64,000 nucleotides of DNA. Source: Micromonospora sp. NBC_00389. Lineage in GTDB: Bacteria; Actinomycetota; Actinomycetes; Mycobacteriales; Micromonosporaceae. Positions within the stretch are counted from its first letter, which is position 1. The number at the start of each line of letters is the position of its first letter. The DNA lies in contig NZ_CP107947.1 in NCBI RefSeq assembly GCF_036059255.1, positions 806,001 to 870,000 of the forward strand, given 5' to 3'. Both the position numbers and the translations under genes were made by a program. Below are positions 42,502-44,855 of the stretch, one piece after another. The notes under the pieces are model-generated. The model saw only the letters and a list, made by a program, of their open reading frames with translations, did no database searches and was not told the DNA's origin.

Positions 42502-42822
42502 TCAGGCGACGGTGACGCTGACCTCGTTGATGCCCCGGCCGGCGGTGACGGCGGTGTCGCCGTTGCCGTGTCGGGACAGCGCGCGCAGCGTCCAGGAGCC
42601 CGGCGCGGCGAAGAACCGGAACTGGCCGGCGGCCGAGGTGACGACCTCGGCGGTGAACTCACCGGTCGAGTCGAGCAGCCGGACGTACGCGCCCGCCACG
42701 ACCTCGTCCGCCTCGGAGCGGACGATGCCGGTGATCACGGTTTCCTTCTCCAGGTCCAGGCTGGCCGGCAGCGGCGCGGCCTGGTCCGGGGCGGCGCAAC
42801 CCGCGGTGGTGGGAGCAGTCAT
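42502..42822 (-). CDS. DUF1416 protein (SseC-like)
   Basis: A 106-residue beta-rich protein of the DUF1416/SseC family: VITGIVRSEADEVVAGAYVRLL, GEFTAEVVTSAAGQFRFFAAPGSW, GINEVSVTV. The fold looks like a carboxypeptidase regulatory (transthyretin-like) domain. It starts 2 bp after the thiosulfate sulfurtransferase gene, an arrangement shared with mycobacterial cysA2-sseC2. Possible sulfur-carrier or accessory role, unproven. Confidence 0.88.
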   Translation of the reverse strand: MTAPTTAGCAAPDQAAPLPASLDLEKETVITGIVRSEADEVVAGAYVRLLDSTGEFTAEVVTSAAGQFRFFAAPGSWTLRALSRHGNGDTAVTAGRGINEVSVTVA

Positions 42823-42824
42823 GG

Positions 42825-43673
42825 TCAGGCCTCCCCGGGCTCGTCGCCGAGCGCGACCGGCACGCCGACCAGCGAGCCGTACTCGGTCCAGGATCCGTCG
42901 TAGTTCTTCACGTTGCGGTGACCCAGCAGCTCCTGGAGCACGAACCAGGTGTGCGAGGAGCGCTCACCGATCCGGCAGTAGGCGATGGTCTCCTTGCCGT
43001 CGTCGAGCCCCGCGTCCCCGTAGATCCTGCGCAGCTCGTCGTCGGACCGGAAGGTGCCGTCCTCATTGGCCGCCTTGGACCACGGGACGCTGATCGCGGT
43101 GGGGATGTGCCCGCCGCGCTGCGCCTGCTCCTGCGGCAGGTGGGCGGGGGCGAGCAGCCGGCCGGCGAACTCGTCGGGGCTGCGCACGTCGACCAGGTTC
43201 TTGGTGCCGATCGCGGCGACGACCTCGTCGCGGAAGGCCCGGATGGAGGTGTCCGGCTCCTGCGCGACGTACTGGGTCGCCGGACGGGTCACCGCGTCGG
43301 TGACCAGCGGGCGGGCGTCCAGCTCCCACTTCTTGCGACCGCCGTCGAGCAGCTTCACGTCGCGGTGGCCGTAGAGCTTGAAGTACCAGTAGGCGTACGC
43401 GGCGAACCAGTTGTTGTTGCCGCCGTACAGGATGACGGTGTCGTCGTTGCTGATGCCGCGCTCGGAGAGCAGCGCCTCGAACTGGGTCTTGTTGACGAAG
43501 TCCCGGCGGACCTGGTCCTGCAGGTCGGTCTTCCAGTCGATCTTGACTGCGCCGGCGATGTGGCCGGTGTCGTAGGCCGAGGTGTCCTCGTCGACCTCGA
43601 CGAAGACGACGCCCGGGGCGTCGAGGTTCTTCTCGGCCCACTCGGCCGAAACGAGTGCGGTGTCGCGACTCAT
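42825..43673 (-). CDS. Thiosulfate sulfurtransferase (two-domain rhodanese)
   Basis: A 282-residue enzyme that moves sulfane sulfur from thiosulfate to cyanide or thiols, similar to mycobacterial CysA2/SseA. An inactive N-terminal rhodanese domain (VVFVEVDEDTSAYDTGHIAGA, DDTVILYGGNNNWFA) precedes the active domain with the Cys loop in IAYCRIGERSSHTW. ATG 43673 has GGGAG 7 nt upstream. About 210 bp further upstream is a Cys-rich leader peptide gene in the same direction. Confidence 0.92.
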   Translation of the reverse strand: MSRDTALVSAEWAEKNLDAPGVVFVEVDEDTSAYDTGHIAGAVKIDWKTDLQDQVRRDFVNKTQFEALLSERGISNDDTVILYGGNNNWFAAYAYWYFKLYGHRDVKLLDGGRKKWELDARPLVTDAVTRPATQYVAQEPDTSIRAFRDEVVAAIGTKNLVDVRSPDEFAGRLLAPAHLPQEQAQRGGHIPTAISVPWSKAANEDGTFRSDDELRRIYGDAGLDDGKETIAYCRIGERSSHTWFVLQELLGHRNVKNYDGSWTEYGSLVGVPVALGDEPGEA

Positions 43674-43847
43674 CGAATCACTCCCTGGTGAGGATGGATG
43701 GTGAGCCAACGCGCGAATATCGATGGGTTTGACTGTCGCACCGCGCGCGGGACCCAGCAAAAGGACGGGATCACGGGTTCGTGCGACGGCGCCGCTGCCG
43801 GGCGTTCGGTGGGATCACCGGAGGGTACGAGAACCCTGCGTGCCGGT

Positions 43848-43890
43848 GGCCGCCGTCAGGCGGCCGAAAACAGCCCCGCCGTCAGATGAC
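43848..43890 (-). promoter_or_regulatory. Possible Cys-codon attenuator region
   Basis: On the minus strand, CTGACGGCGG occurs twice: at the leader ORF's stop and about 28 bp later. The second copy forms a stem GGCCGCC-TGAC-GGCGGCC (43848-43865); the first can form CCGTCA-TC-TGACGG (43879-43890 region). These overlapping choices suit a translation-coupled attenuator. Structure not computed. Confidence 0.45.
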
Positions 43891-43959
43891 GGGGCGACAC
43901 AGGCAGGTGGCCACGCGGCACAGGTCGACCGCGCGCCGTTTGGTGAGGTGGGTCCCCAT
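43882..43959 (-). CDS. Cysteine-rich leader peptide (25 aa)
   Basis: A short reading frame ATG 43957-43959 to TGA 43882-43884. The peptide starts MGTHLTKRRAV and ends DLCRVATCLCRPVI, with three Cys in the last 12 residues, two separated only by Leu. A TAGGCT lies 8 nt before the ATG, so it may be leaderless. Mycobacterial poly-cysteine leaderless ORFs upstream of cysA2-sseC operons sense Cys-tRNA and attenuate the operon; this looks like the equivalent, ahead of the same two genes. Confidence 0.8.
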   Translation of the reverse strand: MGTHLTKRRAVDLCRVATCLCRPVI

Positions 43960-44024
43960 GGCCACGGAGCCTACCAGCCAGTGACTGTGCTGCCACTGGG
44001 TCGACCAGCATCCGGGAATCCAGG

Positions 44025-44066: not shown

Positions 44067-44855
44067 TCAGCTCGCGGAGTTGATCGGCACGTTCTTCGCG
44101 TCGGCGGTGACCGCCAGCCCTTCGGGCAGCGGCCGGACCTCCCGAACGGCGAGCTGGAAGGGAAGGTCGGGCAGGGGCACGTCGATGGAGATGCCCTTGG
44201 CGTAGTTGTTCAGCAGCGCGCGGGCCAACGGCAGGTTCGGCAGGCCCTCGGCGTCCAGGTTGTTGAAACGCAGCGCGACGGCGCCACTCTTGGCGACCGT
44301 GACGTCGGCGGTGCCGCTGACGGTGAGTGTCTGGCCGAGGATGTCGACCGGGGCGGTGACGGCGAGCTTGCCGCCCTGCTCACCGAGGGTGAGCCCGGGC
44401 CGGTCCAGCAGCGCGGCGAGACTCTCGTAGCTGATCGTGCCGGTGCCGTTGACCGTGTCGGCGACAACGTCGCCCTGCCCGGTGCGCAGAGTGTCCAACG
44501 AGGCCCGCACGTTGCGGGCGTCCACGTCCAGCACCAGCAGCCGCACGGCGTCGCCCTCGACCGAGGCCTGCACGTCCCGCAGCTTGATGGAGATCCGCTG
44601 GTAGCGGCCGTCGAGCACCTGGGTCAGGAACGGAGTTCCGCCGACCTCCACATCGGGCGCGGCGGCCTGCGCGCCCTGCTTGGTGACCTCCTGGCTGACC
44701 CGGTCGGCGATGGCCCGCTCGGCCACCCCGACCGCCACCCGGTCCGCGATCACCAGCAGCCCTGCCACCAGCAGGAGCAGGACGACCAGGCCGATGAGCA
44801 GCTTGCGACCGCGCCGTCGGGGCCGGACCCCGTCCGCCGGATACTCCTGCGCCAC
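44067..44855 (-). CDS. lmeA: LmeA-family phospholipid-binding protein (DUF2993)
   Basis: A 262-residue secreted or membrane-anchored protein. After a basic N-terminus (RPRRRGRKLL) comes one helix (IGLVVLLLLVAGLLVIADRV) and a DUF2993 domain with QVLDGRYQRISIKLRDVQ, LLVLDVDARNVRASLD and GISIDVPLPDLPFQL. Mycobacterial LmeA binds phospholipid and affects lipomannan elongation; the role in this non-mycobacterial relative is inferred. Neighbours (sulfurtransferase, glnR, mshD, pst) match the order around Rv0817c as I recall it. Confidence 0.8.
   Translation of the reverse strand: MAQEYPADGVRPRRRGRKLLIGLVVLLLLVAGLLVIADRVAVGVAERAIADRVSQEVTKQGAQAAAPDVEVGGTPFLTQVLDGRYQRISIKLRDVQASVEGDAVRLLVLDVDARNVRASLDTLRTGQGDVVADTVNGTGTISYESLAALLDRPGLTLGEQGGKLAVTAPVDILGQTLTVSGTADVTVAKSGAVALRFNNLDAEGLPNLPLARALLNNYAKGISIDVPLPDLPFQLAVREVRPLPEGLAVTADAKNVPINSAS

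Follow-up and report, generated by a model that had tools for sequence, protein, structure and literature searches.

Passages of Shell et al. (2015) describe a mycobacterial upstream open reading frame (uORF) preceding cysA2/Msmeg_5788 and ending in clustered Cys codons; it is conserved among mycobacteria, and 70S ribosomes occupy it in M. smegmatis (PMC4633059). Other authors summarise the work of Canestrari (2020) as reporting an attenuation mechanism responsive to the supply of cysteine (PMC9031893, PMC13236596). In the relevant section of a 2005 survey, no terminator hairpin was found to be conserved among the mycobacterial cys leaders, and how they are regulated is described as unknown (PMC1262725). 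We take the uORF of Shell et al., on the basis of its name and genes, to be the type member of the Ms5788A family of leader peptides. In four-segment attenuators of the trp type and in translational attenuators of the erm type, pairings 1:2 and 3:4 compete with pairing 2:3, and the control codons are situated beside segment 1.

Here we analyse a 64,000-nucleotide stretch of DNA from Micromonospora sp. NBC_00389 (the window), in which a Cys-containing uORF precedes a cysA2-DUF1416 operon. All features described below are on the minus strand. We propose, with a probability of about 0.6, that this leader of the Ms5788A family acts as a leaderless cysteine attenuator, in which pairings 1:2 and 3:4 would compete with pairing 2:3 to control expression of cysA2-DUF1416. 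Comparison of related leaders supports the uORF, its codon conservation, the spacing of its promoter box and the three pairings. The peptide family has already been described and annotated, and what appears to be new is the candidate four-segment switch; in open-licence papers, a scope that leaves the main 2020 paper outside, we found neither an account of the leader as it occurs in Micromonosporaceae nor one of a paired-strand switch for it. The peptide of actinobacterial cysteine leaders was known; for this leader, candidate paired strands can now be named and are testable base by base.

A leader peptide of the Ms5788A family precedes cysA2 in Micromonospora

The operon consists of a gene for a cysA2-type thiosulfate sulfurtransferase (rhodanese; 42825-43673; PF00581, E = 8.6e-35) and a DUF1416 (sseC-type) gene (42502-42822; PF07210, E = 5.6e-41). 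Among named sequences, those closest to the sulfurtransferase are Micromonospora proteins with 98% identity, and its Shine-Dalgarno sequence is AGGGAG at 43681-43686. As the preliminary description had it, a 25-codon ORF with TAGGCT 8 nt upstream lies about 210 bp ahead of this operon; the distance from the leader stop to the rhodanese gene start at 43673 was measured as 208 nt. The ORF (43882-43959) translates as MGTHLTKRRAVDLCRVATCLCRPVI, with Cys at codons 14, 19 and 21. The next gene upstream, on the same strand as the leader (44067-44855), encodes an LmeA-like phospholipid-binding protein (PF11209).

The peptide scored against the NCBIfam profiles was a 27-codon form (43882-43965) that begins with the GTG at 43965. 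This form matched NF042933, "Ms5788A family Cys-rich leader peptide", with 64.9 bits (cut-off 45; E = 3.7e-18) over positions 1-27 of 27, and the leader stretch recovered by the genome search scored 61.9 bits. NF042934, "putative leader peptide", was matched at 39.9 bits (cut-off 27); this is a broader group of cis_reg_atten leader peptides with other genes nearby. The GTG at 43965 was rejected as the leader start because the -10 box ends only two bases before it.

The peptide had been described as different in sequence and family from the mycobacterial one. This was wrong, as NF042933 scores over its cut-off and the core LTKRRAVDLCRVA is common to the Micromonospora leader and the mycobacterial loci; a novel peptide family was rejected on the same profile score. 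Judged by sequence, the leader corresponds to the cysA2 uORF of mycobacteria, for which an NCBI model already exists. Since the family is known and the same kind of gene is located downstream, the arrangement is not a parallel invention. The Micromonospora and mycobacterial members have in common the LTKRRAVDLCRVA core, the leaderless geometry and the cysA2-type gene downstream, but the mycobacterial core ends in a poly-Cys run (CCCCCC), whereas the Micromonospora peptide has CLC with no contiguous run, a feature that the NF042933 model does not require. The dispersed Cys arrangement is a lineage variant. Moreover, the mycobacterial loci shown start with GTG whereas the Micromonospora leader starts with ATG, and the gap to cysA2 is 208 nt here, shorter than the 569-574 nt measured at three named loci from mycobacteria. 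The suggestion of a Cys attenuator outside mycobacteria is well supported by comparison, and the earlier interpretation as a whole is partly supported.

NF042933 exceeded its cut-off in 61 of 61 Micromonospora genomes sampled. Among 150 genomes of the family, 146 contained a match at E ≤ 0.001 and 111 a match over the cut-off, where "family" is the grouping used by the search tool and includes genera with MRK...FCR peptides that look like Glycomyces and Stackebrandtia. A phylum sample gave matches in 17 of 296 genomes, eight of them over the cut-off. A pattern rule applied around cysA2, with a similar box rule, recovered a leader at 75 of 80 further loci; the 80 were picked from the top of a long list of matches to the downstream gene, and the figure is not a census. 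Leaders from Nocardia, Nocardioides, Geodermatophilus, Glycomyces, Gordonia, Mycobacterium and Saccharopolyspora were among the 40 loci listed. Of 148 loci compared, 144 had a cysA2 relative downstream of the leader, and the remaining four were weak off-locus matches.

The uORF is predicted to be leaderless

The TAGGCT sequence (43968-43973) has the form and position of a -10 box placed 8 nt before the uORF start. A TANNNT box 6-8 nt before the start was present in 143 of the 144 loci with cysA2 downstream (8 nt in 108 loci, 7 nt in 32 and 6 nt in 3), a figure that is partly circular because the box was used in choosing each start codon. As background, none of 799 start codons within cysA2 had such a box. 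An ATG start with the 8 nt spacing was found in all 65 Micromonospora loci. In these loci a Shine-Dalgarno-like 4-mer was never found 5-16 nt before the uORF start (0/65), and one was found before the cysA2 start in every case (65/65). For comparison, the distance from box to start in S. lividans is given as 4 to 9 nt in a passage of PMC8079986. From the box spacing and the lack of a Shine-Dalgarno sequence, which together place the predicted 5' end at the start codon, we predict that the uORF is leaderless, as in mycobacteria.

Cys codons and neighbouring codons are conserved at the DNA level

Cys14 and Cys21 were kept in all 128 family loci scored, and Cys19 was kept in 65 of 65 Micromonospora loci and 56 of 63 loci from other genera. 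The Cys21 codon (43897-43899) was TGT at each of the 65 and 63 loci, i.e. 128 of 128. In 45 long window ORFs with high GC3, taken as putative genes, Cys was encoded by TGC 82 times and by TGT 13 times. Outside the family, the matching Cys among the 40 loci listed was mostly TGT, with TGC in four Nocardia loci. The invariant TGT raises the question of whether the codon, beyond the amino acid, sets the sensitivity of a charged-tRNA sensor.

DNA identity among the 65 Micromonospora loci was 0.99 over codons 6-22 compared to 0.59 over bases 21-60 upstream of the ATG, and synonymous positions are therefore held as well. In codons 5-22 there were 6 nonsynonymous and 11 synonymous departures from consensus. 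The Lys7 codon (43939-43941) is AAA in 64 of the 65 loci despite the GC-rich genome.

These nearly invariant amino acids would also be expected if the product were a small, conserved protein functional in itself, in which case the RNA pairings described below would serve something else. The constraint on synonymous sites argues against this explanation, as do the retention of the less used codon for Cys21, the use of the C-terminal codons as one arm of a hairpin and the differences in Cys content between lineages. We regard such a protein function as highly improbable.

Segments 1 and 2 are predicted to form a conserved hairpin

Segment 1, GCCCCGUC (43888-43895), occupies codons 22-24 and is the predicted 5' arm of hairpin H1. 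Segment 2, GACGGCGGGGCUGU (43870-43883), starts within the stop codon. Its initial portion makes up the predicted 3' arm of H1, and the segment is also one arm of the candidate long-range helix. Pairing was assessed by swap tests, in which the folding energy of a leader's own arms or partner was compared to that obtained after arms were exchanged among leaders. The genus-level test used the first-listed leader of each genus and covered 34 of the 44 family genera, ten genera being left out. H1 arms folded with a mean of -16.46 when native and -13.89 when swapped (0/5000), and similar values were obtained for 58 distinct pairs from other genera (-16.31 versus -14.15; 0/2000). Within Micromonospora the test was negative (329/2000), there being too little variation. 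In 15 leaders of other families H1 was no better than swapped combinations (164/2000); the switch is therefore claimed only for the family represented in the window. In one Micromonospora leader ORF (L110) the usual stop has been lost, yielding a longer peptide, and the H1 hairpin sequence is kept.

The strong conservation of H1 would also be expected if the locus were a plain transcription attenuator, in which H1 is a terminator that forms after ribosome release when cysteine is present and is blocked by stalling, with pairing 2:3 being incidental. H1 is followed by UGUUUU in the window, and one of two terminator-like matches in the region, counting both strands, spans H1 (0.2 matches expected). 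However, TTTT follows H1 in just 9 of 129 family loci; a conserved U-tract was not found, and H1 as a simple terminator was rejected for this reason. The combination that marks a classical transcription attenuator, a terminator hairpin with a conserved U-tract, was not found across these loci.

Two copies of CTGACGGCGG had been noted after the ORF and taken to allow alternative stems. Both copies are present, but the first overlaps the stop codon and so is not strictly after the ORF. The second is contained in hairpin H2 (GGCCGCC-UGAC-GGCGGCC; 43848-43865). A perfect 6-bp stem at this site was found in 58 of 65 Micromonospora leaders and in 4 of 64 others; the sequence itself recurs in a single one of these four, L127. 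Changes such as GGTCGC/GCGACC were spotted by eye and are uncounted. As this hairpin is largely confined to the genus, the second copy was rejected as a conserved alternative partner. Comparison does support alternative RNA stems, the covarying partner of segment 2 being located instead at 43785-43799.

Segment 2 covaries with a strand 70 nt downstream

This alternative partner, segment 3 (GGCAGCGGCGCCGUC; 43785-43799), is found 70 nt downstream of segment 2. A first test of the 2:3 helix with a fixed segment 3 window was negative, both for 28 distinct other-genus pairs (514/2000) and within Micromonospora (1414/2000), where both strands hardly vary. Later tests differed from this version in searching the whole leader for the partner. 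A preceding set, 30 leaders chosen by hand from 28 genera, yielded 8/5000 and 9/5000, with negative outcomes for five control strands. With one leader from each of 34 genera, segment 2 paired more stably with its own leader than with swapped leaders (-22.91 versus -21.17; 0/5000), and six random draws of genus representatives gave 0, 0, 0, 0, 0 and 1 of 2000. Control strands from the same 34 genera were negative, with 980/5000 for codons 20-25, 1815/5000 for codons 10-16 and 3439/5000 for the strand just after H1.

There were 27 distinct 2:3 arm pairs among 103 loci. Variation is slight in the first seven base pairs. At pair 8, 11 of the arm pairs have G-C, 7 have C-G and 8 have a G-G mismatch; at pair 10, 9 have G-C, 8 have A-U and 4 have G-U. 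The match in single leaders was often not distinct from that in shuffled ones, and in the genera resembling Glycomyces and Stackebrandtia it was unconvincing when leaders were considered one by one. Covariation of segment 2 with a strand transcribed approximately 70 nt later would be left unexplained if H1 acted simply as a terminator, and we consider that explanation unlikely.

A conserved RNA element contains segments 3 and 4

The last 3 nt of segment 3 lie within helix P1, whose arms are GUCGCAC (43781-43787) and GUGCGAC (43735-43741), the latter being segment 4; only these three nucleotides are shared by the 2:3 helix and P1. In an alignment that was not fitted to P1, 8 cells at two base pairs were changed on both sides compared to 0.7 in shuffles (0/500), six of the eight double changes being of one kind. 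P2, with arms GAUCC (43768-43772) and GGGUC (43751-43755), was paired in 98.8% of cells, with little variation and in an alignment fitted to P2. A possible third helix, P4 (43742-43748 with 43709-43715), would form a pseudoknot with P1. P4 gave 2/2000 in the swap test, in which a few leaders were visibly mis-segmented, and it looked better in two counts for which the structure was chosen from the same sequences or the alignment was fitted to P4. It was not above shuffles in an alignment not fitted to P4, and we keep the pseudoknot as a suggestion only.

Models R1 and R2 of the conserved RNA element (43700-43804) gave a single strong match in this genome (E = 7.4e-20), the next best having an E-value of 0.52. 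At E ≤ 0.01 the element was detected in 20 of 44 genera and 79 of 150 family genomes; in at least two of these genomes, G080 and G196, the sole match was weak and lay elsewhere. Matches in 5 of 296 phylum genomes outside the family (E = 0.001-0.005) were taken as chance. In contrast to the mycobacterial Ms5788A leaders, the element was found only in leaders of the family to which Micromonospora belongs. Rfam gave no match in the window at the gathering score, the best sub-threshold match in the leader region having an E-value of 2.4, and a known riboswitch was rejected.

Folding of the leader, to which the preliminary description had pointed, gave a divided result. H1 together with H2 folded better than shuffles (z = -3.85), but the conserved block alone (43725-43810) did not (z = 0.59), and the whole leader was only slightly better (z = -1.30).

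Proposed mechanism

The order of the parts fits control by stalling because the last Cys codon abuts segment 1. Competing 1:2, 3:4 and 2:3 pairings, as in a four-segment attenuator, were all found, with the first version of the 2:3 test being negative. We infer the 5' end, ribosome stalling, the direction of the switch and its output, whether transcription or translation. Transcription would begin at the uORF AUG, and a ribosome would translate at once. When charged Cys-tRNA is present, the ribosome would pass codons 14, 19 and 21, terminate and leave. Segments 1 and 2 would then form H1, leaving segment 3 free, such that P1 (3:4) could form upstream of the cysA2 ribosome binding site and expression would be low. 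When Cys-tRNA is short, the ribosome would stall at Cys19 or Cys21 and cover segment 1. Segment 2 would then pair with segment 3, taking three bases of the P1 5' arm, and cysA2-DUF1416 would be expressed.

Because segment 3 is made after H1, pairing 2:3 cannot prevent termination at H1. We therefore favour control exerted at P1 or beyond it, the simplest form being translation of cysA2. We tentatively propose that in Micromonosporaceae stalling at the invariant UGU Cys codon may govern how strongly cysA2 is translated, through a long-range four-segment switch whose freed strand would invade an RNA element, structured and perhaps pseudoknotted, immediately upstream of the ribosome binding site. 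If so, the switch would provide the RNA component that has been missing from the picture of cysteine attenuation in actinobacteria. The computed accessibility of the Shine-Dalgarno sequence in ten leaders showed no consistent difference between stalled and released states, and Shine-Dalgarno sequestration was rejected.

Release of the ribosome might instead leave an untranslated leader open to Rho, with the downstream structures only pacing or shielding transcription. A C-rich, G-poor stretch ahead of the Shine-Dalgarno sequence, seen by eye, would fit this possibility, and the relevant section of the 2005 survey proposed Rho for the mycobacterial cys leaders while judging its own prediction rather weak (PMC1262725). 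Rho-dependent attenuation does not predict the covariation of paired strands, and we think it quite unlikely to be the explanation.

The four-segment switch proposed here resembles trp- and erm-type attenuators in its pairing scheme and in the placement of its control codons. It differs in that 70 nt separate segment 2 from segment 3, that no conserved terminator U-tract is present and that sequestration of the Shine-Dalgarno sequence was not demonstrated. The LEU element upstream of leuA in Actinobacteria, as described in part of the 2005 survey, likewise combines a leader peptide with a candidate pseudoknot before the first gene (PMC1262725). LEU concerns leucine whereas this leader concerns cysteine, the P4 pseudoknot is weakly supported, and the likeness is drawn from the published description.

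Related leaders elsewhere in the genome

Four further leaders resembling NF042934 (L153-L156) were found elsewhere in this genome at E ≤ 0.1, two of them over the cut-off. The genes near them encode an M14 peptidase, an NMT1-type binding protein with a permease, a family-3 binding protein with a permease, and a Cons_hypoth698 protein. As chosen, the reading frame for this last protein begins next to its leader. The ABC transporters would fit a role in sulfur uptake; the M14 peptidase is an unexpected target for a leader of this type.
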